Shown here one piece after another: positions 7,800 through 60,143 of a DNA stretch of 64,000 bases. Position numbers and translations under genes: made by a program. Under the pieces are notes generated by a model. That model saw only the letters and a list, made by a program, of their open reading frames with translations, was not told the origin of the DNA and searched no databases. The DNA is taken from the NCBI GenBank assembly GCA_021432635.1, contig MU270020.1, forward strand, positions 1,531,415-1,595,414, read 5' to 3'. Each line of letters opens with the position of its first letter. Position 1 is the stretch's first letter. Source of the stretch: Thozetella sp. PMI_491 (taxonomy: Eukaryota; Ascomycota; Sordariomycetes; Chaetosphaeriales; Chaetosphaeriaceae).

Positions 7800-8820
7800 T
7801 TAGCATGATTGGTAAAGGAGCAAAGGTTCGCCGACATTTTCGATTTCTGGGATTGTGCACTTGAGATCGAAGGCCTTTGAGAGGACAATCTTGAAGATCT
7901 ATAGCCAAGGTTAGCACACTGGTCATCAACTCGGTCGCTCGAATATACACGTGCCTTCTGGACATTAATGCTATGGCTCGTGCTGCTGAAAATTAGAGCC
8001 GCACGCATTGCCTTTGCAAACCGCCGAGCCTAGAGCTGTTAGCGAGAGAGTGGTTGAGATGGCTAAGTCGCCTTACCTGGTTCGAGATCTCTTCCTGGTC
8101 CTCCCGGGGAAAGTTGACGAAGTGGTCGTACTTGGTTCCTACCAAGATAGGAATCGCCGTCTTGTTGAATCCCCTGCCTTGTCGGTACCATTCCTTGATG
8201 CTGTTGAGGGTGCTCTTTCGCGTGAGATCAAACATGAAGAGAATGGCAACAGCATCATTGCATACGAGCGGCAGCATGTTTACGAACTCACGCTGGCCAC
8301 CCAAGTCCCAGATACTGAACGTGATCTCGGTGTTGCGTATGCTGATCGTTTTCTCCATGAAGTTGACTCCTAGTGTTTGGATGTAGTCTTCATCCCAGCT
8401 GCCCTCGACGTACTTGACCATGAGACTCGTCTTGCCAATCTGTGCGTCGCCCACCATGCCGACCTTGATCACCACGTGGTTGCGCCCGTTGTTCTGGCCC
8501 TCGCTGGCGCCGTTGCTTCCTGCCCGGCTGGCATGGTCCGCACCGTAGCCTCCCTGCCCGGAGAGGCCGGAAGGCGGGCGCGATATCGACATGGCGGAGG
8601 ACTGCGGGATTGGAGGGGTGGTATAACGGGAGTTGGGATCCATGTCCATTCCGTCGGGGTGGTGATGGGATCGTGGGGAGTTGGTCAAGCCCTGGTCGAG
8701 GGACTGGGACTGGCCGTGGCGGCGCTCCTGAAAGCCATTGTTCTGGCCGATGTGGGGGGAGCCCTCGATGCCGCCGAGGGTGTCATCGTGGGCCTCGAGG
8801 GGCATTTGATCTTGCTCCAT
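7800..8820 (-). CDS. spg1: Septum-promoting Ras-like GTPase (Spg1/Tem1 family)
   Basis: Small GTPase expected to switch on the septation initiation/mitotic exit kinase cascade from the spindle pole body. Three exons: 8820-8077, 8029-7955 and 7898-7800; 305 residues. Seen: P-loop GDAQIGKTS, switch I region with LGVNFMEK, G3 DLGGQ, G4 GTKYD, then ARRFAKAM, and the family-typical tail [18 protein letters not shown] with [13 protein letters not shown]. There is no C-terminal prenylation box, as is usual for this family. About 105 residues of Ser/Pro/Gly-rich sequence precede the GTPase core. The start at MEQDQM is a choice, because the frame is open for 130 codons upstream, which reads like leader sequence. 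Intron 2 (7954-7899) uses donor AAG|GCACGT, a GC-AG intron fixed by the conserved protein. Confidence 0.93.
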
Positions 8821-11608
8821 CCTGTCCACGGCGTCGTGAAACTGGGCCGGGGAGCCCGCCGAGAGGGTTGAGGAATCCAGGATGAGGAGGGTTGACCGAG
8901 AGGATCGCAAGTCTCTCGGTCTCGAAGGATAGGGTCGGAGGGGCAGGGTTGAGATCCGGCTAGGGATCGACGAGGGGCAGATGGGCAAACAGCCGCAACT
9001 GAGTCGGGCGGCGTGCTGCAGGGCCGGATCGAAGGAGCGACGGCGGAGAAAGGAAGGACTCGAGGCAGGTCGGCCAAGCCTCAGGCGCACTCCACCGGTT
9101 GCTGGGGGCCGACGATGGCCTCGTGAGGAGATAGTTGCTATCAGTGGTGATCGGCCAGGAACCAAAGGCGGTCGGAATTTGCGCTGCGTCACTGTCTCGC
9201 AGACCTGCACGCTCTAGAGTGGCCGGGGGCTGACGATCAGCGAGTCCGGCTTCGATGCCAGAGGGGTCGTCGGCCGGCTTCCAGAAGGACAAAGAAAAAA
9301 AACAGGCCGTGCGCCACACAAAAGGGATGATTAGACAGTCCTAGGCCTGAAAAGAGGCAGAAGTGGGAAAAGGAAGGAGAGAGTGCTGGAAAAGCGATAC
9401 GGCACCAGTTTGATGAGTAACCGTAGCTATTTCATGGCTCCCATGCCGTTTTGGTGAATTGATTCAATGCTCGTGGACGGGGTGGGCCAGGGGGGGGGGG
9501 AGTGTTGGTGGAGAAAGTGGTGGTGTAAAGCGTGACCGCGGCTTCTCGAAATGGAGCACGCCAGAGACAGGCACGTAACAGTGCGCGAGCGGGGAGGAGG
9601 CACCTTCACAAGCGTCGTCCCGGCGTTCCACGCGCACCCCGAAAGGGCGAAGATGCGGCCTTTTTCTGGCGCTTACGGCAGATACAAGGCCAATGAGGCT
9701 TCTCTGCAGCGCCAAAGCTCAGCACCGACACGGAGCCCGGCCTGGATCTGCGCCTAACCTGGAGCTCGGCTGGCTCCCGCTTGATTATGGGCTGCAGGAG
9801 AGCTGGAGCTGGAAACACGAAAAAGACGCGACGCGACCTGACGCACGAGCGTGCACGAGATAAAGAGCGAGCCCAAAGATGAGAGCATGCAGGACTGTTT
9901 GTTCCAACCCACCACAAAAATACAGGAGAAAAAAAAACGAGGCGACGGGCAGACCACAATGAAGCTAGTGAGAATGCAACTGTCAACATTCGCGAGAAGG
10001 AGAGAGGGGGTGATGAATCCTGCTATTTACATGCTCGTGCCTTGGCCAGGAGAGCCTATGGCAGGTCTCCTCGGCGGCATCGCTTGCCAATATCAAGCCT
10101 TGCTATCAAATTTCCAGATTCCCGACGTCGTGTTTTCAGGGGGGTGACGCGGGGCTGCCCCTCCCGCCAGCTGATTGGGCCACGAGTCTATATGGCGGCA
10201 TGTTTCATGCGGAAGACAACAACGGAGAGAGCTGACATAACCGGATGTTTCCCCCACTCCTGCAAGCCTCTAGGCTCAGCTCTGCAGACTAGAAAGATTG
10301 CGATCCCTCGGCCTCGGGGGCTTTGTGCTGACAACAGAACTAACGTGTGCACTGCGCCGTTGGTGGGAGGGGGGCTTGGGACATGAACAGATAACGGGGC
10401 GGCGAGGGGCAGGGGCTAAGCAAGCCCAGAGGGTGCAGAGTCCCCGAGCCAGCGCCATCTTGTGACACCTTATAGCCTGAATCCTTTACAATGGGTCCTC
10501 GCACGGCGACTTGTGGCCAACTGCATGCTATTCAGAAGCATCACAACGCGCTACCTTAAGTACCCACTAAGAGCAAAGAAGCAATGGTGAGGGGTGTTTA
10601 TCAATAAAGTAGGGCGTAAGCCGCACGGCATTCCGAAGTTCGATAGCTACTAGGCAACCGACCCCGAACGCCGGCTTTCTTTTCTCGTAGTGCCCTGTTT
10701 GCCCTGTGGCACACCCTCTCCTCAGCCCCTTAATAGGTAGGGTGCATATGGTTTCCTTCGCGTTTGCTCACTGACAACCTCTAGGCTGGATATAGGCTCT
10801 CTCGCCCGTGTTGGAGGGCGCCGTCGCCTCTGGACTAGAATCGGTCCACTGAAGGGGTTTCCGAATACATGAACAGCACACGAAACCATGGTCTGCAACA
10901 TAACTAATCTGCAATCTGCAATGCATGCGGTCTTTGTAGGTCGAAGCTGCCATTCAACTTATTTAGGCCGATCATGCATCCATGCAATGCAAATTCACAT
11001 GTCTCGCTAGTCCGAACAATCTGGAGGTGCACCGTGCAGGTCGGTATCGGAGCGGCAGTAGTCGATCTAATATGTCATTACGTGCCGTCTTTTCTTGTCT
11101 TAGAATCAAGGGGCAACTAGATACCCGACACTGTTGAAATCGAGCTTGCTTGGAGTAGACAAGTCTATGGATATTAGATTTTGCAATCATACAGTTTCAA
11201 CCATCTCTAACACTTTCAGAGCGCCACCTGCGTGTGCCATTCGCCCGGGAGGGTCCACGGCAGAACTTGTTCCAGGGCCGGAGATTTGCGGGTGGTAGTG
11301 TGCTGTAAGGACCTGTAAAAGGTAAAGTGCCTAGATGCTGCCCGCGCTCAGAGGCAGTCTGCAGTCCCCTAGCGGAACTCACTGCCCCTCTTGGGCTGCG
11401 GGGTAGACGCTTTGTGTGCCGTGGAGCGGCCAGCAGCGGGCGAAAGCCCCTTACGTAAGTTCCTTATTTTTTTTTCTCCTTCGACCGAGAGCTCTAGCCG
11501 AATCAGCCAGCCGATTGGTCTGACCAGTTTCCCTCGTCATCGAACTATCTCCCGCCCACGAGCACAGGCAGCTTTCGCGACAACTTCAGGCTCGACTATT
11601 CCATCGCA
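8821..11608. other. Long intergenic region between divergent genes
   Basis: It holds the upstream regions of the GTPase (minus) and of the H-protein gene (plus). There is an 11-G run at 9490-9500 and a CT-rich leader just before 11609. The minus-strand frame 9606-9989 has no motif and is not called. Confidence 0.55.
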
Positions 11609-12282
11609 ATGGCTACCGTTGGACGTTTCATGAAGGCGGCTCGCCCGTCGTTCGTCTCGGCCCTCACCAAGGCCGCCCCGGCCGCGCGCCCTCTCCCGGC
11701 TGCTGTCCGGTTCACCGCCGTCCGTGCCTTCTCTGCCACCACCATCAGTGAGCACCCCCCTCCTGCTCTATTCCCCCCTGATGTCACCCCGCTCCAGCGT
11801 GTCAATTGCACATGTCACCGCTGCTTCTACTGCGTCTAGCCCTCGCTGACTCGAGCTCGTCCCTTGCAGACCCTATCCGTAAGTACACCAAGGATCACGA
11901 GTGGATCGACGTGTCGGCCGATAAGAAGACCGGCGTGATCGGCATCAGCGAGTACGCCGCCGAGGCCCTCGGAGACGTCGTGTACGTCGAGCTGCCCGAG
12001 ACAGGAAAGGAGGTGGCTGCCGGCGACGCCATTGGCGCCGTCGAGTCGGTCAAGAGCGCGGCCGACATCAACGCCCCCGTCACCTGCAAGGTCACCCACG
12101 TCAACCTGACGCTGGAGGAGAAGCCCGGCACTATCAACCAGGTCCCCGAGGACGACTCGGCCGGCGGTGGCTGGATTGCCAAAGTGGATCTGGAGCAGGA
12201 CATTGAGAAGGAGCTTGAGGCCCTGATGGACGAAGTGACGTACAAGGCTTTCACGGAAGCCGAGGCGGAGAAAGACGAATAA
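11609..12282 (+). CDS. GCV3: Glycine cleavage system H protein, mitochondrial
   Basis: Lipoyl carrier of the mitochondrial glycine decarboxylase complex; shuttles the methylamine intermediate between P, T and L proteins. Two exons, 11609-11747 and 11870-12282 (122-bp intron, donor GTGAGC, acceptor TTGCAG), 183 residues. Residues 1-45 are rich in Arg, Ala and Ser without acids, a mitochondrial presequence ending around AVRAFSATT. The mature domain opens with KYTKDHEWI, and the lipoylation site is the Lys in GAVESVKSAADI. The C-terminus is acidic (EAEAEKDE). Length and order match the family. Codon use is strongly GC-ending, as in a well expressed gene. The neighbours do not belong to one-carbon metabolism. 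Confidence 0.97.
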
Positions 12283-13026: not shown

Positions 13027-15041
13027 TCAATTCCCTCCCTTGCCACTGGATCCAAAGAAATCGTCCAGCAACTGGTTCGCACGTTCCGCTACCGTCTGAT
13101 CTCGCCCGAGTGGATGTACCCCTGGCGGTTGTGAGCTCAGCTCCACAACTTTCTGATCGGCGGCAATCCCATGTTGCTGTGGCGATCGAGGAAGTTCTGG
13201 CACTGCCGCATCTGCATGTATAGGATGCTCGTTCGGCGGCAACACGGCGGCGGTCTTCGTCCGCTCATCGGCATGCAAATCGTGCTCCTCCGAGGCGGGC
13301 TCCGGCGAGCTCACCGTGCGCTCATCAACGGCGATGTCATGTGCGACTGTAGGTAGCAGATCTGAGCTCTGTACTAGGACGTCCTTAGTGATGTCGTGTT
13401 CGCCCTTGAATCGGAAGACCTCGGGAGTTGGGACGCGATCATCTGAGTGGACTGTGTGGCTTTGGGGTGCAAGTAAGCCCGGAAGTGGAACGCGTCGATC
13501 GTTTGAGAGGCTGTGCTGGCGGACCTGCTCTTTGGCTCTCGGATCAGGAACTTGAATGTCATGCTTGATGTCGTGACCCTCGGTGGCAGTGATGTGTGGG
13601 GTGTGAGCCGTATCATGTGTTTCCAGACCACGGCCTTGTTCTGGCGTCTTGTTCTCCGCCACTGGGGAGTCGGGACTCGTGGTATGCTGCCGCGGCTGTA
13701 CCGTCACTTCCAAAATGTCATCCGCTGATATTCTGTGTTCTCGAGTTGGTGTAGCCTTGGAGACGTGGATCACGTCATGTACATCGATCTCATGAGCCCG
13801 AGTTTCCACAGCTTCGGGGATGGCGACTGGAGCATCGTCACTAATGCTATGTTCCCGCGCTGGCACCAACCCTTGAATGGGTGTTTTCGGATGTGACTCT
13901 AGATCGTGGTGTCGAACCGGCTTGATGACCAGCACAGGTCTATAGGACTCGGTGGGGTTTTCACGGCTGTCATGAGAGTGGGGAAGCGCCGCTGAAGCAC
14001 TATCACTGGCCCCTAGCTTGGGCGGCGCCAGTGAGGCGAGGTTCGGGGACTTGGTCCGTGGAGCTTGATGCTCGAATAACGGCAGCGGCTCGTGAGGAAC
14101 GAATGTGGGCGGAGCACCTGGGCCAGGTATCAGAACAAGATGCTTGATAGTGGCCTGGGGGTCCGGGTTTGGAGCCAAGGCAAGTAGCCACTCGAGAATG
14201 CGCGGAATATTACCTGCTAACGGGGTGTTCTCTCCATATCTCGACCGCTCAACATCCTCTCCACCCTCTAGAATAGGAGTCAACATCTTTCCTCTGCGGT
14301 CGGAGGCATCAGGGCCGACGGGTTGGCGAATGCTCTGTAGGCCTCCGCTGTCGGGCCTCATGCCATTGGGGTACACAGGAGTCATCCGAGGGAACCCCAT
14401 TCGATTTTCTGGCAAGGTTTGTCCCGTAATATTGCTGTCAGTAGGTGTCGGAGAGACCACTCTCATGGGCGGCTGTGATTCGTACGGATCTTCTCCTGTC
14501 ATAGCATCCATCGGCCGGTACGTCTCCCCTAAGGGCACGGGAGGCTCCAGATAGCCCGATTCGCGACCTTGTTTCTCGGCTTCGCGGGTACGGACCTCGA
14601 GTTCGTTGCGGATCTGGGAGCAGGGTAGACAAAATATCCCTTTGACCACATCGTCACTGTAGGTCCCGGGTATATCGTACGTCTCTCGGACTCGTCGCGT
14701 CTGCTTGGCAGTATAGACGCCGCTGCCAAAGCCTAACATGGTGGAGGGTTCCCCTGTTAGCTCCCCAGAGCAAATAACAACGAAAATTCGACCAAAATGG
14801 ACGTACCAAGGCCGGCGCAGCAAAGAAAGAACTAATCCTAGCAGCCTGTATTGCAGCCTTGGTAGTCCGAGAGGTCTAGCGCATCTCGATGGCGGTCAAC
14901 TCTGGACAATCGGTATCGTGTGCGGCCGAACTGATCGCAGCCGAGGAAGCAAGCCCTTGGGCAATCTCCTTCTTCGCCTGAGTTTGCGAGGGATATCTTC
15001 CAACCGTTGTTTGGCGGTGCCTGTGTCGTTGACTGAGCCAT
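13027..15041 (-). CDS. PLAC8-domain protein with long 19-residue-repeat tail; two in-frame TAG codons in the domain
   Basis: PLAC8/DUF614 proteins are Cys-rich, often membrane-associated; the role here is unknown. Exon 1 starts at 15041 (MAQSTTQAPPNN) and carries the first half of the domain (DCPRACFLGCDQFGRTRYRL, YQGCNTGC). The same frame then meets TAG GAT TAG (14840-14832), continues FFLCCAGL to a GTACGT donor at 14806, and rejoins at 14732 in phase with GFGSGVYTAKQTRRVRETYD and FCLPCSQIRNELEV. The 74-bp intron has a GCTAAC branch site. After the domain comes a Pro-rich linker, then a tail of about fifteen 19-residue repeats. Frame continuity on both sides of the stops is exact. They may be nonsense mutations, readthrough codons, or lie in a weak 69-nt in-frame GT-AG intron (GTTGAC...GATTAG, about 14900-14832). 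About 645 codons in total. Confidence 0.75.
13060..13908 (-). repeat. Protein-level tandem repeat, about 15 units of 19 residues
   Basis: Within the PLAC8 gene a His recurs 15 times, at intervals of 19, 19, 19, 17, 23, 14, 20, 19, 20, 19, 19, 19, 18 and 19 residues. The unit is roughly [RE]xH-[DSE]-[IL]-x-x-D-x-x-V-x-x-P followed by a variable Pro-rich stretch; examples are REHSISDDAPVAIPE, SHTVHSDDRVPTPE and EHDLHADERT. The units differ strongly from each other at the DNA level, so the array is old and kept at the protein level rather than a recent satellite expansion. Confidence 0.85.
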
Positions 15042-32430: not shown

Positions 32431-32462
<32 letters not shown>

Positions 32463-38971: not shown

Positions 38972-40906
38972 GCCGTTTACGTCCCGTGTCCGTGAGAGGC
39001 GGAGGCTGCAAGAGATCCCCTCAGGTATTTTGGCACGACTTTGTGCTGCTGGCTGACTATCGAGAAGCAGGCATGCGGAGGAGGGGGAAGGGGGGGTGAC
39101 ACAGGCGTCGCAGGGGCGCCTGCTCAGTAGCTATTATCGCTCTAGATGCACTACATAGCTCTCAGCCTTAGAGATATGGAATCACTGCTTCGACACTCTC
39201 ACGCTTCTCGTTCTCGCACAGGGGGCCGCTCTCAGCGATGATTAACACTACAGGATGCGCCACCTGCGGCTGGATGAGGTGCAGAGGCCTGCCCAACCAT
39301 CTAGATGTCGAGGCGATGTCGCCATGGCGAGGCAGAGTGACCGCATGGGCTATTGCCACGCGGCCCAGTGGCCTGGGACCAGCGGACCCGCACGGCTGCA
39401 CTATTTTAGATATTTTAGAGACATGCTCAGCACGAGGGGGCCCAGAAGGCCGGAAGAGGGGGGGAGGGTGTAGCTGAGGCCACGGCACAGGAAGAGACCG
39501 CCGGCTGACAGGCACGTTTCCCTCCCGCCACCTTCCAATCGGGGAAGGCGGCCCTCAGGCGCGATAGCCAGCGTCGAGAGACGGGGCAAGTAGCTAAAGA
39601 ACGTCAAGCGAGTTGGCAGGAGACGCTTGCGCGCTGGCGGCCCTAGTAGCACACCGAATGCCTACATAGCGCTGGGTAGTTCTACTGTTCGCTGCGGAAG
39701 GCGCAGGAGAAGAAGGATGTACTTGGTAGAACGCCATGCTAGTTCGCGGCCCCCAGGTCTAGACCCCCGTAGGTGGCTAGGGCCAGAAGCGCCCCGCTAA
39801 AAATGCGAACACTGCACTAGTCCCGCTCCGTACTATGTAGGCACAAATGGGTGGGAACGCTGAGCCGCGGGCTCGGGATCTGCCGTTGGGAGGGTTGGCA
39901 CTGGGCGATCGGGCCGGTGTCAGCTGGAGAAGACCGGCGATGACATCAGGAAAGACCGCATTGGCATCGACCTAATACGCGGCTATGCTAAGACGCAAAT
40001 CTTCATTTATTTCGATCAGGCCGCTGCCACCACCGGCCGACATCCGTAATGCGCCGCCGAGAGTAGCTAAATGGGGGACAGGGAGCGGAGGCCGGGATCG
40101 AAGCGAACATGTCTTGCAGGAGTTCGATCCGACGGGGGGTTTTTTTTTTTAACCATTTCTTCTTTTTCGGCAGGCCAAATTTTCATTATCGCCAAAGATG
40201 GCTGATAGAAGTGGAAGGAGCATGGGGAGGAGCAGGCGAGGGAAAGGGGGAAAAGGAAAGTGGGGGAAACAAGCAACGGCGATGAAAACCGGGACGGGGG
40301 CACCAGCGCGTAGCGCAGTGCCAGTGCAGAACGTTAGTACCACCTGGGGCGTTCTTATCGGCCCAACATTCCTAAAGAGGGGGGTTTGTGCCAAGAGCCA
40401 AGCGCCGAGCCAGGCGAGCACATGGGATAGCGGCAAATCGTACAGAGCGCATGTCGTATCGTACATAGTACACGAGAGACGAGAAGGGAAAAAAAAAAAA
40501 AATCAATCAATCCAGCTGCTCAAATGATGGTCACGTCGCGAGACATGAAATCATTCGGTGTTGACGCGACAAAACCTTGGTCGCGCTGGAGGGGACGTTG
40601 CACCTGTCATCCCATCACATGTTTCATGTCTCCAAACCTTTTCATTGTGCTCCAGCAGACACACCACGGGGCGGGTGGGGTGGCGCGAGATTGGGCGCTG
40701 GGACTCGCAAACTCAATTCCCCAACCACCACCGAGCCGAAAAAAAGCCATAAGACCAGACCCAGCGGCCACCCTGCCCCTCCTCTCCCAAAGCCCCAAAG
40801 GCCCGATGGCCCCAGGGCGGTCACGGTCGGCCCAGCGGACCTGCATAAGTGTGGTGGCCAGCCCCCTTCACAGCAGATTGTAGATGATGCACTGTAGATA
40901 AATATA

Positions 40907-40938
40907 TAGATACGTAGATACGTAGATACGTAGATACG
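40907..40938. repeat. Octamer tandem repeat, TAGATACG x4
   Basis: Four perfect copies head to tail, no spacers. Confidence 0.9.
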
Positions 40939-41534
40939 AGGAGGTACGTACCATCCAGTAGAACCAGAAGTACTCCGTACAGGACTCCATAGATAAATGG
41001 TAACATACCCCTCAGCTGGGAAGAGGGCTGGCCCATCGACGGCCACGACGCCAGCCAGTGTCGGTCGACCCGCTCGAGGGGCCGCAGCAGAGACCCTAGT
41101 CGCAAAAGCCACGTTATCGAGAGGGGTTGAAGAAAAAAACAAGAGAGAAACAAAGGCGACGGCATCATGGTTCTCGCCACTGTAGCGTAGGATGCGGCCT
41201 GAGACACGATAACGCTCACCAGTCTCTATTGTTTCCCTGCTCTCTTTGTTCCGCACCGGGTGCGGGTGGTGTGTGCCAGGCGCCTGTATGGACGGCAAAT
41301 CGCGGGCGTGCATTGTTTAATATGCGATGGTAAAACACACTTCCTTGATTGCGGTTCCTTCTCCTCCCTGCTTCCCCCCCCCGGCCACCGAGATTTGAGG
41401 GAGCCTGTCCAGTCTCGCTTTTCGAGGCAGACGGCAAACACGCCCCGGGCAGTGCTGTGGAACACGGCATGCCTCCGACCGCTAGCTGGTGGAGAAGAAA
41501 ACAGTATCTACTTTGCTACTTTTAGTGCGGAATA

Positions 41535-41562
41535 CAGTCAGTCAGTCAATCAGTCAGTCAGG
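41535..41562. repeat. CAGT-type tetranucleotide repeat
   Basis: Six CAGT-like units with one TCAA interruption, in the long upstream region of the gene at 42842. Confidence 0.8.
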
Positions 41563-42841
41563 TCGACATGGCGCGGGGCGTGGAGGCGCACGTCGATGGA
41601 CGAAGTGAGCGATCCGCGGCGCTGGTTGCGAGCTGCGGCTGCTCTCTGGCCTGGTCTAATTAGCAGGCGAGGGCAGCAAAGAGCGAGCGAGCGGGCAGGC
41701 AGTCTGGAAGGGCCTGCAGCGCGGCCACGCACGCCTGCTGTCCAGGCGGCCCTAGTGCTTGCATTGGGGCCGACTTGGGGCCATTGGGGGGGAGCCTGCA
41801 CCCTAGTCGCCTAGCCGGGGAGGGGGTGGGACGCCAACTTAGTGGTGTTGGGGGGCGGGGCTACCCATCCAATGAGGCGGCGGCCACGCGGTCAGATTGG
41901 GAAAGGCCTCGGTCCTCCCCTCGTGCATGCAGCTGTGGGGAGCCGGGCAGGGGTAATTAACGCAAACGCCAACCGCATCCGGACAGGTGCCCTGCTCATC
42001 ATGCGCACGTACCGCCCAAGGTTCGGTAGCCAATTTCCAAAGGCCAATTTGAAGGCAAGGTCGCCCGCTCTCTCCTTGCTCCTACCTGCTTGCTGCTTGC
42101 TGCTCTCTGTGCCTTGCCTTGCTCGCTTTGCACAGCTGCCAGTCTCGACGACATTCCGACTCGGGAGGACCGCTTGCTTGCTCGCCTGCCTGCCTTGTCT
42201 GTCTCGTTCGGCCTTCTTCAACCATTTTTCCTCGTGCGGATCCTCGGTGTCGTCCGGTCGCGTTCCCTTGCTTGGTTCGGAAAGAAACAAGTCACTTGGG
42301 CGGTGTTGATCTCGAGCCACTGGAATTTGCGCCGTGTTATTTGCCCTGCCCTCGCTCCCGCATGACGAACTGCGAGCTCTGAGCCTCGTCATCCACCCGC
42401 TTGTGGAAGACAGCTGAGGCCCTTTCCTGGATTTGCCCATTCCTGCTTGGCTGGCCGGTCCTTTCCAGTCCTTTCCTTCTTGCACCACGCGACTTCGGTT
42501 GGCATTGCCACCATTGTCATTAGGTATGCTCGCCCCGATACTCCTGGCCCCTTCTCCCCGAAGCTCCTTTCCTTTCCGGTCACACCAGCTCCCTCGCCTC
42601 AAGAGCGATGTCGGCCGGCCATTGGAACCTGCCGATTCTCGTGCTAACATCTCTCTGCCTGAAAGACTAAAGACTATCCTCAACATCTGGCTTGCCAGTC
42701 ACGTTTTCCCGCATCACTTTGCAACCCCTCCTCCCAATCCGAGCTCCTCTAGGCTTGCGTCGATCGTATTCTTAAACCGCCAATTTGTTTGTCTCTCCTG
42801 CACGAACCACCAGGTCCGGATCCGGAAAATTTCCTCTCACA

Positions 42842-43330
42842 ATGGCCTCCTCTCCGATCAACGAGAAGGCACCCGTTGTCGGCCTCACGCTGAGCACGAG
42901 CACGGCCAGCCCGACGCTGGCCAACAAGGCATCTCAGGACACCCTTGGTTCAGGCGGTCTGTCCCCCTCCGCTGAGAAAGCCGACGGCCGCCCGCGTCCT
43001 TCGGATGTATCGACTCCGTCTACCGCCCATCTGAACCCCTTTGACACCGACATTGAAGCCATCATCACCACCACCGAGACGAACCACCGCCGGTCGCTCG
43101 AGTGCACCAAGGGTGGCACCGACTGCCACGTCTGGCCCAGCCAGGAGCATTGGAAGGCCAAGGCGAAGAAGGCCAAGCAGCAGCGCCGCAACTGCAACTG
43201 CCTCGGCGGCCTGAGCAAGCGGAACCGCATCATCGCCAAGGCTTTGATCGGTCTGTTGGTTGTGGGCATTGCCGTCGGAGTGGGCTTTGGAGTTAGCAAG
43301 CCCCTCGGCGCTAGCATATGGCACAGCTAA
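42842..43330 (+). CDS. Conserved hypothetical protein with C-terminal TM segment
   Basis: Single exon, 162 residues. The N-terminal 60 residues are Ser/Thr/Pro-rich and disordered. NPFDTDIEAIITTTETNHRR, TDCHVWPSQEHWKAKAKKAK and NCNCLGGLSKRNRIIAK follow, then one TM segment LIGLLVVGIAVGVGFGVS and a short tail KPLGASIW. The layout fits a tail-anchored protein with its basic-flanked helix at the end, and these blocks are familiar from uncharacterised ascomycete proteins. The ATG context CACAATGG is strong. The GC-rich body and a very long CT-rich upstream region suggest a strongly regulated transcript (inference). Confidence 0.8.
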   Translation: MASSPINEKAPVVGLTLSTSTASPTLANKASQDTLGSGGLSPSAEKADGRPRPSDVSTPSTAHLNPFDTDIEAIITTTETNHRRSLECTKGGTDCHVWPSQEHWKAKAKKAKQQRRNCNCLGGLSKRNRIIAKALIGLLVVGIAVGVGFGVSKPLGASIWHS

Positions 43331-44385
43331 GGCGGCACCATACTCTGGTCTCGACCAGTCGTCTCGTCTCACCTCATCGTGCCTTACCATATTCGTGGTG
43401 AACCGCCCTCGCCATGCTCGCTCGCACTCGCCGTACATACCCCCCGCCACAGGGCACCGGCCATCCATCTATCTACCACCCACCGGGCAGCATTGGAGCC
43501 CGCGGCCAACCTCAGCACACCCTCAACTCGTGGGAGCAGCTCAGTATTCCGCATTTGATACCCCACCTGCCGCTTCTCTGTACATATTCCGTTACGATTC
43601 GTCCCCCACGGCTCTTCCGCAGCCCTGGCATCGGGCTCCTCTTTCCTTGGTACTAGACCTCCACCGCATCACGGCGGCCGGCGTTCGGGGTGACTTCTTT
43701 TTACACGTACATCTACTGGTTCTTGTGGTCGCTCGGGAAGGACGCTCAGTCGGGCTTCCAGCTCGCAACCGAGGTGGCCCATTCTGTTAGTTATCGAGGG
43801 ACATGTTCAGAGGGAAAGGAACTGGACACTAATGGCGTACATTGGGGCTATGACACCCGGATGGTTATCGTCTTAGAGAGGGGAATATAGCTTACGAAGA
43901 ATTTGGGCTGGTAGCCGTTGACGATGTCAACGCACCAGATCCCAATTCCCCGCCCACGTTTCTGCCTCCTACGCACCAGTGATGACTTAGCTAACTACCC
44001 TTGCTCACCGACCTCCTCTCCAGGCTATGCGCAGCTCTAGGACAGAACGAACGCCACTTCAGCTTTGCGACCGTCCTTGACGCCTTCAAAGTCAATGGTA
44101 CGCCTCCAACCGATAGATGATTGAAGCTACCAATAGAAATCCGCGTGGCTTGCATGTAGGCCGATACGAGCACGAGGCGCCGCCCTTTTCGGGGTCGTCA
44201 GCCCTTCACAACGGGACACAACAGGACACAAGGGAGGGTCCATGGCTTGAAGGGTTTCCCTGTCGGAAGCAGGTATGCAGGATAGAAAGTGGTAGGAGGA
44301 CTTTCGCGGCGCTAGGCCGAAAAAAGTGAACCATGCCGCCACATGTTCCGGTTTCCAAAGACTATCTATGCAGGGAGAGACCGCC
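43331..44385. other. Intergenic region between convergent genes
   Basis: 3' flanks; no gene recognised. The GC-rich part to about 43800 may be transcribed 3' UTR. Confidence 0.55.
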
Positions 44386-57332: not shown

Positions 57333-58139
57333 TTACCGACCTAGATTCTTCGCCACGAGTGTCTGGAAATCCGTGTTCTTCCCGGCGTTGAAGTCGTGCG
57401 ACCAATAGGCGAAGACATCATGCTCGCTGAAGCTCGACAGGTTCGACGCTGGGTTGGACGGCCGGGAGGCGGCATAGGCAAACGCCAGACGATTCCCGCC
57501 GTTGGGGTTGAGAACTACGTTGCGCCCCGTGTCGGTGGTATATGTTGTACAGCCTGTGCACTTAGCTGTAAACTGCCAATGTGTGCCATTGGACTTGGTC
57601 CCCGTCTTGAAGACGTTCACGGTGGCACCGCTGTACGGAGTCGGGTACGTGTGGCCGCTGAGGCGCGTTAGCCCGAGCCCGGTGGCGGTTGGTAGTAAAT
57701 GTGATGCGCACTTACGGGGAATACCGGGAGGAAACGACTGCTTGGTTGTTGTTCCACCACGCCACCGTCAACGGATTGCGAGCCATGCCCCCTCCCCACG
57801 CGAGGCCAACCCATCCCACGTTCTTCGGGGAGACCACCTGCAAGACTACGTCGAAGCCCGTCCCCGAGGCAGAGGGACTGGGGACCGCCACGCGAAAGAC
57901 CACGACGCTCCCATCTATCGAATACTTTGCCGACGCCTCGGAGAACACGAAGCCCGTCTCGGCATCGTGGTACACGGCATCGGCATCCGCTACCTGGAGC
58001 TCGGCATCGCTGGCTGGGAACCCTGCTGCAGAGCGAGTCAGCACGGCTCGGGTCACGTCAAGCGGTCGGCGGTCGGCCGGAAGAACATACCAACGCCCAC
58101 CAACGCCACCAGCAGCCTCAGCGGGATTGCCCAGCGCAT
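57333..58139 (-). CDS. Secreted CDH-type cytochrome b domain protein (AA8, iron reductase domain), stand-alone
   Basis: Extracellular haem b protein related to the cytochrome domain of cellobiose dehydrogenase; such domains pass electrons to lytic polysaccharide monooxygenases or reduce iron. Three exons: 58139-58091, 58025-57716 and 57657-57333; 227 residues. Residues 1-17 (MRWAIPLRLLVALVGVA) are a signal peptide. Seen: WVGLAWGGGMARNPLTVAWW with the probable Met haem ligand, GHTYPTPYSGATVNVF, WQFTAKCTGCTTY, and SEHDVFAYWSHDF with the probable His ligand. The chain stops soon after the domain (LVAKNLGR), with no flavin, carbohydrate-binding or TM part, so it is a single-domain member. Introns keep phase exactly. 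Confidence 0.9.
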
Positions 58140-60143
58140 CTTGGAGCGGTGCGGGATCAGCGGTCCGGGAAGGAAGATGGATGACGAAGGCCGCTGCGAT
58201 TGGGGCCCGAGGTTGGCGGTCGGTGTGTTCACAAAGCCTGAGGGGGCAGGTGTTCCTCTTCCCGACCGACGCCGCGGGGGTGAGAAGAAGCAGCGGCCGG
58301 AAGGTGTGCCAAGCGGGAAAGCTGTTCAGATCTCAGGACGTCCGCCCTCAGAGGTTCGGCACGTGGACGCCGGCTCTGCGCAGCAATAGGCACAGCAATA
58401 GGCACAGCAGTAGGGGCTGAAAGCCTAGTGGTATAAGACTGGATCGCTATTGGCAAGGCGCTGGGATCCCGAGGCCCGGAGAAAGCCAGAGCAGCGCTGT
58501 GCTACTGGTTGATATCTGCCATTAAATACACTCGCGGCCACCGACACACCCTTCCACGCCAAGCGCACTCATGTGTCTTGTCCGACGGAGACTCATGGGC
58601 GATATGCCACCGTGATATACGAGTGACATGTCCGCCATACCCGATCGGGGGTGCCAGGGGCGGGACGACGGGAGTTGGGGGTGCAGAGAAGGTCCAGTGT
58701 AGAATGACGCTCGATTTATCCGGATATTGGGCTGCGCGCGCGATAGGGAGGGGGGGTAATTGGCCATCCGCCCCGCATCCTGAGGTCCAATGCTTCGTCT
58801 GTGAGCCGCACGTCCGACTGGGCATAGAAGAAGGCGAAAGAAGGAAGGAAGAAGGAGTTTGGAAAAAGGTGGAGGCTCAGGGCCCCTCCAATATGACGAG
58901 GCAATTGAATGCGCCTCATGGGTGGGTAGTGCGAGCAACGAGACTGGCGCCATGATGTCACGGCTCGATGCCCCCAGAGGCCGGCCATGATGCATGTGCT
59001 CTCTCTACCTAGAGAGGGAGAACGACGCATACATCAAGGGCCTGTCCAATAGACTATAGATTCTTGGGCGAAAACGAATGCGCCCCTCCCCAGCGCATCC
59101 CGAAGGAACCAAAAAGCAGCAGAGGGACGCCCAGAGCTCCCTCCCAGGGAGAGGCGTGTCGGACCATGTCATCTGACCATCCGATCAGGCTGAAGAAGGC
59201 CCGTGTGGGTCAGGAGTCCGGCGCCATAACTAGGTCCCTTCCGAACTGAATCCTGGATCGTGCCGTCATGGTCGCACCAAGGCGCCTGAAGAGAGGGGCC
59301 AGGTCCGCGAAGGAGAATTACCTGCACGCGTCTCGGCGACCTGGCTGACGTCCGCGCCGGTATATTAGCCCACCCACGCCCGCCCGCAGCGTCGCCTTGG
59401 GCGCGGAAGTGGAGATTGCAGAGTCCGCGATCCGGGGAAAGAGCATATCCGTATTCCAGACTATTCCACGCCGCACCATCGCCGGGAAGGGAAGGGGGTG
59501 ACACATTGCCCCTCCGCCTGAAGGGCGTCGCGGAGGGGGCATCGTGATCCCACCTCGGGCGACCGATGGGAGGTGTAGGTTCCTTGGCGATTGGGCCTCG
59601 CTGAAGTAAAGCTCGGCGTGGCCGCTGAAGCGAGCTGGGCTACCATCCTAGCCTGAGCGATGCCGTCCAGCCAAGGACCTGCTCCAGGGCTAGGTCTATA
59701 TATAGAAAACGCGCGCAGCGGAGTAGAAGATTCGAAATGTTCTAAGACCTTATATCGCTATTTGCAATCCGCAACAGCGAAGGACGCGGCACGGGCCTAG
59801 CACGAGATAATAGGACTGCCCGGGAGGCTGCGTATACTCGGAGCACTTGGCAAGGGCACGCTGAAGGCCCGGTGCGTTGCAGTTCCTATATGCAGTTGTA
59901 ATGGACGGCACTGCAAAGGGTCTCAGGTCGCATCGGCCTCATCTCGACGCAATTAGTGGCTGCAGCTTTCAAGCAGGATGCCCGATCAAATTTCGGTATA
60001 GCTGTACTGTCTGTCTTGTGACTGGCCCGATGGCCCGGGGACGGCCGGACGACGACACCAAAGAGCCTAGCCTGCACCCAAAAGCGGAAGAGGCAGAAAG
60101 TGAGAGCAAATAGGAAAGAGGCAAAAAGTAACCAGTAACTAGC
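58140..60143. other. 2-kb gene-free stretch
   Basis: Upstream of the AA8 gene. GC-rich to about 59700, then more AT-rich before the tRNA. No gene supported. Confidence 0.55.

Follow-up and report, generated by a model that had tools for sequence, protein, structure and literature searches.

The window, by which we mean the whole 64,000-nucleotide stretch of Thozetella sp. PMI_491 contig MU270020.1 that was analysed, carries on its minus strand a gene whose predicted product joins a divergent PLAC8-like domain to a long tail of short repeats. Its features and nearest annotated neighbours are as follows.

14807..15041, minus: exon 1, with the ATG (15041) and the 5' half of the PLAC8-like domain, interrupted by two in-frame TAG codons (sequence and homology)
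14832..14840, minus: TAG-GAT-TAG, nine bases in the exon 1 frame (alignment to paralogues)
14733..14806, minus: putative intron GTACGT...TTAG, 74 nt (donor from the sequence, acceptor by our reading, with 14754 as the end of an alternative intron)
13027..14732, minus: exon 2, with the 3' half of the PLAC8-like domain, a Pro-rich middle and the repeat tail (putative acceptor)
13911..14560, minus: Pro-rich middle without a Pfam match (Pfam and composition)
13060..13908, minus: 15-unit repeat array with the core H-x-[IL]-x-x-D-x-x-V, units usually 19 residues apart (motif and spacing counts)
13027-13029, minus: TGA stop of exon 2
11782-12282: glycine cleavage H-protein (Pfam match)
from 17805: CAND1 (Pfam match)

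The acceptor of exon 2 was picked by homology and by a CTAAC lying about 20 nt upstream. Among the frames scanned, those of the glycine cleavage H-protein and CAND1 are the nearest to the array gene that have Pfam matches. Elsewhere in the window, PDB 7zm7, presumably the Chaetomium thermophilum protein, is the nearest match to a 249-residue piece of the complex I 49-kDa subunit (235/249 identical), and a Ras-type GTPase domain at 7993-9213 follows about 250 residues of open frame that have no Pfam match. The region 40642-43790 holds six overlapping or closely spaced open frames of 180 to 268 codons on both strands, none of which matched Pfam at E up to 0.01, and includes a perfect four-copy TAGATACG microsatellite (40907-40938). 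At 57478-58420, a plus-strand frame of 303 codons overlaps one of 252 codons on the same strand, neither with a Pfam match, and the pair ends at a short CAGCAATAGGCA repeat; a 30-base run of T lies at 32432-32461.

An earlier note on this DNA had described a His-centred array of 15 units, mostly spaced by 19 residues, and the array was confirmed. It begins at residue 330 of a minus-strand frame that runs for 622 codons from stop to stop, with units starting at the following positions.

Units 1-8, minus: 13908, 13851, 13794, 13737, 13686, 13617, 13575, 13515
Units 9-15, minus: 13458, 13398, 13341, 13284, 13227, 13173, 13116

The 14 unit-to-unit spacings are 19, 19, 19, 17, 23, 14, 20, 19, 20, 19, 19, 19, 18 and 19 residues; 8 are exactly 19, 11 lie between 18 and 20, and the range of 14 to 23 has its lower end at unit 6, which is 14 residues long. 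Among lags of 3 to 59 residues, self-identity of the tail peaks at 19 (0.186, versus 0.115 for the runner-up), and the pattern H-x-[ILVT]-x-x-D occurs 12 times in the tail, compared with a mean of 0.6 and a maximum of 5 in 20,000 residue shuffles. The frame is the sole one with two H-x-[ILV]-x-x-D motifs among 739 window frames of at least 50 residues. The array is real.

Conservation is concentrated in a few columns. Counted from the His, which is present in 15/15 units by definition, the +2 residue is Ile or Leu in 12/15, the +5 residue Asp in 12/15 and the +8 residue Val in 9/15; by residue class, hydrophobic residues fill +2 in 13/15 units and +8 in 12/15. Across 22 offsets (-8 to +13), column information at -2 (Arg), 0, +2, +5 and +8 was unmatched by any of 20,000 draws from the tail composition, the value at 0 being high by construction. 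Weaker signals were seen at -4 (0.008), -3 (0.042) and +1 (0.049), and most of the other 17/22 offsets resemble random tail draws. After Bonferroni correction by residue class (132 tests), +2, +5 and +8 survive and Arg at -2 fails (0.19).

Units differ in how closely they follow this consensus. In a leave-one-out scan, 9/15 scored above all 4,083 nine-residue windows from neighbouring proteins, and the remaining six were equalled or exceeded by between 1 and 19 windows, with unit 3 faring worst. Four units break the consensus: Asp at +5 is absent from units 1, 3 and 6, two of which have His in its place, and Thr occupies +2 in units 5 and 6. Units 9, 12 and 13 contain HxxH. Among the eight units of exactly 19 residues, hydrophobic residues occupy +2 in 8/8, +8 in 5/8 and +14 in 5/8, and Pro occupies +15 in 5/8; the last two positions hint that the conserved core could extend beyond nine residues.

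At the DNA level the units resemble one another little. None of the nine Tandem Repeats Finder rows falls at the array, and no tandem repeat was detected there. Mean identity between units is 0.43 over the 27-base cores (best pair, 0.70) and 0.32 over the linkers. Conserved residues are written with mixed codons (His as CAT in 8 units and CAC in 7, Asp as GAT in 9 and GAC in 3, Val with all four GTN). The array frame has a codon usage score of 0.123, slightly under the 0.133-0.252 of the four neighbouring training frames listed, and the other five frames score negative. Given that the synonymous bases have lost their order and that most columns outside the motif are free to vary, the protein motif was held while the DNA drifted, as the earlier note had claimed. 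The constraint shown is a past one, present-day selection being a matter for orthologues. Judged by their divergence, the units are old, with few residues held.

We looked for relatives of the tail in several collections. Searched with all 294 residues at E up to 5, neither Pfam-A (24,736 models) nor the PDB sequences returned a match, in line with the proposal that this is not a described repeat family. The repeat profile (A2) was built from 12/15 units; a profile of six two-unit rows matched one PDB sequence, a Mediator subunit (E 0.27), which we took as chance. Within the 72.3-Mb assembly (157 contigs), the 622-residue frame gave no hit besides its own locus at E up to 1, and the tail found itself and one other place, L009, at E 2.99. 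We rejected the latter as a second array and regard the match as chance because its 441-residue frame contains no H-x-[ILVT]-x-x-D and, on visual inspection, resembles a 2OG-Fe(II) dioxygenase. No convincing second array locus was thus found in this genome by single-sequence search, a method that could miss a diverged array. Pattern scans gave 52 stretches in bacterial and archaeal contigs and 3 in viral contigs, none of them confirmed; since the collections are bacterial, archaeal and viral, these scans are weak evidence of absence. The literature matches listed, as titles and abstract starts, included no fungal PLAC8 protein with a tail or with repeats. On present evidence the array could be assigned to no known family and is not categorically new.

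Composition places the tail on the disordered side. Its 293 residues include 4 aromatics and no Cys, and its charge-hydropathy value is 0.415 against a boundary of 0.441. On a disorder scale, linkers average 0.316 and cores 0.155, and every 100-residue tail window (minimum, 0.185) lies above all control windows from CAND1, P450, TIP120 and SNF2 (maximum, 0.183). The Pro-rich middle counts as disordered on the same scale (0.224) and falls just on the ordered side by charge-hydropathy (0.424 versus 0.418). All of these disorder calls draw on composition only.

Repeated docking motifs typically show a short conserved core set among freely varying linkers, and we therefore propose that the tail may be a mostly disordered chain of 15 docking motifs for one partner, placed behind a PLAC8-like domain; we put the probability of this reading at roughly 0.45. 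Some fifteen copies of a short linear motif, (R)-x-H-x-[IL]-x-x-D-x-x-V, would be strung along variable linkers rich in Pro, Glu and Ser, and the small Cys-containing domain would tether the protein to a membrane or some other site. Each motif would bind weakly to the same pocket of a single partner protein, and the many copies would provide avidity and clustering. The docking tail is favoured because the core recurs while spacing ranges from 14 to 23 residues and because the signal lies at few columns; the mixed codons at these columns, the disorder-type composition and the codon usage of the frame count for it too. It is disfavoured because 11/14 spacings fall within 18-20, which is steadier than a free docking array needs, because +14 and +15 suggest a core longer than nine residues, and because this copy of the gene may be broken.

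The latter concern arises from the 5' part of the gene. Alone, the 622-residue frame scores 22.3 bits against PLAC8 (PF04749; Pfam cut-off, 34.4), over the second half of the model only, and exon 1 up to its first stop has no Pfam match by itself. When the exons are joined and the stops are read as X, the score rises to 42.4 bits across the full model. A hypothetical 69-base in-frame intron (14900-14832) would likewise open the frame, at 38.0 bits. Its donor, GTTGAC, we take to be weak. The cut-off is reached solely by reading across both TAG codons or by assuming this intron. The earlier note's fusion of the array to a PLAC8 domain is therefore less secure than the array: the domain is split by an intron and interrupted by two in-frame TAG codons, which the note does not mention. 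It fits the full model when read across the stops and is divergent.

This divergence is visible in an alignment of the window domain with three paralogues from the same genome (L001, L002 and L004; the fourth, L003, was left out). PLAC8 domains are expected to carry a Cys-Pro-Cys type motif in their first half. The window domain has FLGC where the three aligned paralogues have CLPC, FLPC or CIPC; the outer Cys align and the Pro before the Cys of [LI]PC is lost, and for this reason we call the domain PLAC8-like and not a firm member of the family. In the second half, C113 and C116 (C-x2-C) and the acidic E124 that follows are invariant in all four sequences.

A recently disabled gene, in which the array was once selected and the present allele makes either no fused protein or a shorter one, is an unlikely explanation but the best placed of the alternatives. 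The TAG-GAT-TAG stretch falls in a gap common to the three aligned paralogues and lies one codon from the site of the phase-0 intron of L004. TAG also works as a stop here, because the CAND1 frame ends at a TAG 18 residues past its TIP120 match, and on that ground we rejected TAG reassignment. Against a disabled gene, the remaining 567-codon frame is open, the weak-donor intron would remove both stops with the PLAC8 match kept, and the stops could be an assembly error. TAG-GAT-TAG could be the remnant of an intron in an allele that has been disabled, the mark of an unusual splice or a fault of the assembly; it may record the loss of an intron. Repeat-induced point mutation is not supported as the origin of the stops, and the genome search turned up no second copy. 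The dinucleotide indices for this process are not raised over the whole gene (0.59 and 1.18, versus 0.74 and 1.23 for the window); those of the short stretch 14700-15041 are raised (0.81 and 1.36), among the highest or the highest when set against the 4-kb blocks (0.66-0.93 and 1.16-1.35).

The tail could instead be a rigid stalk, its units coiling every 19 residues into a regular beta-solenoid with three faces, one of which would bear stacked ladders of His and Asp. In the units of exact length, hydrophobic residues do come back at intervals of roughly six residues (+2, +8 and +14), and hydropathy power is elevated at a period of 6.33 residues (p 0.004, or about 0.06 when corrected for the 15 periods tried) and at 19 (p 0.039). 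There is none at 6.0 (p 0.32) or 2.0 (p 0.79), however, and 6/14 spacings differ from 19, over a range of 14-23, in a tail with Pro-rich linkers and disorder-type composition. We consider such a stalk distinctly unlikely. Its boldest version, an undescribed fold of filamentous fungi in which a continuous stacked His/Asp ladder on a membrane-linked fibre would make a metal- or proton-responsive stalk, seems to us very improbable.

The earlier note had also raised a metal-binding platform, and the residue counts weaken that idea. In a metal-binding tail, each His-Asp pair would hold zinc or cadmium together with partners in other units and support metal tolerance of the kind reported for FCR1 and FCR2, whose genes increase cadmium resistance in yeast according to PMC6488628. 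His in 15/15 units, Asp in 12/15, His at +5 in two of the three units lacking Asp and the HxxH motifs of units 9, 12 and 13 are all compatible with this. Outside the unit-start column, however, His is at background level (9/278, p 0.37), as is Asp outside its own column (15/263, p 0.50). A tail acting as a His-rich metal sink should be enriched in His beyond one column, which is not the case here, and Cys is absent altogether. The hydrophobic residues at +2 (13/15) and +8 (12/15) are moreover as strict as the Asp and are left unexplained by metal. We regard metal binding as quite improbable. That the tail is an unselected spacer whose pattern is a mere leftover of duplication is hardly credible, since +2, +5 and +8 survive correction despite the mixed codons there, even though most linker columns are freely variable.

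If the array does bind one partner fifteen times, that partner would be a first handle on the role of a tailed fungal PLAC8-like protein, and the motif is explicit enough for searches of fungal proteomes. Should this copy be disabled or the tail be a plain disordered scaffold, the significance would be modest.

Among known systems, the window gene, when read across its stops, shares a PLAC8-type Cys-rich domain with FCR1 and FCR2 of Oidiodendron maius and with plant proteins of the PCR/FW2.2 type. The excerpted text of PMC6488628 (2019) names only two characterised fungal PLAC8 genes and describes FCR1 as a small, single-domain protein, whereas the window gene carries a long repeat tail. The same source reports that FCR1 binds Mlh3p in yeast, and that plant PCR1 is found at the plasma membrane, in contrast to FCR1 and mouse Onzin, which are nuclear in yeast, so the putative anchoring site could be the membrane or elsewhere. 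Within its own genome the window gene also differs from the four other PLAC8 genes found, which have short tails and contain two H-x-[ILV]-x-x-D motifs in none of the three gene-strand frames read.

The tail can also be compared with known repeat architectures. His-rich metal-binding tails resemble it in that every window unit has a His, but here the excess is confined to one column and there is no Cys. A left-handed hexapeptide beta-helix is expected to place a small residue at i+4. The window units share the six-residue recurrence of hydrophobics with this fold and with beta-solenoids when their length is exact; unlike the hexapeptide helix, they are irregularly spaced and joined by Pro-rich linkers, and a small residue is not evident at +6. 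To our knowledge, H-x-[IL]-x-x-D-x-x-V matches no described docking motif. Disordered tails with many docking sites include the DPF repeats of EPS15, the APC repeats and the FG nucleoporins. The array resembles these in its short conserved core, variable linkers, many copies and disorder-type composition.
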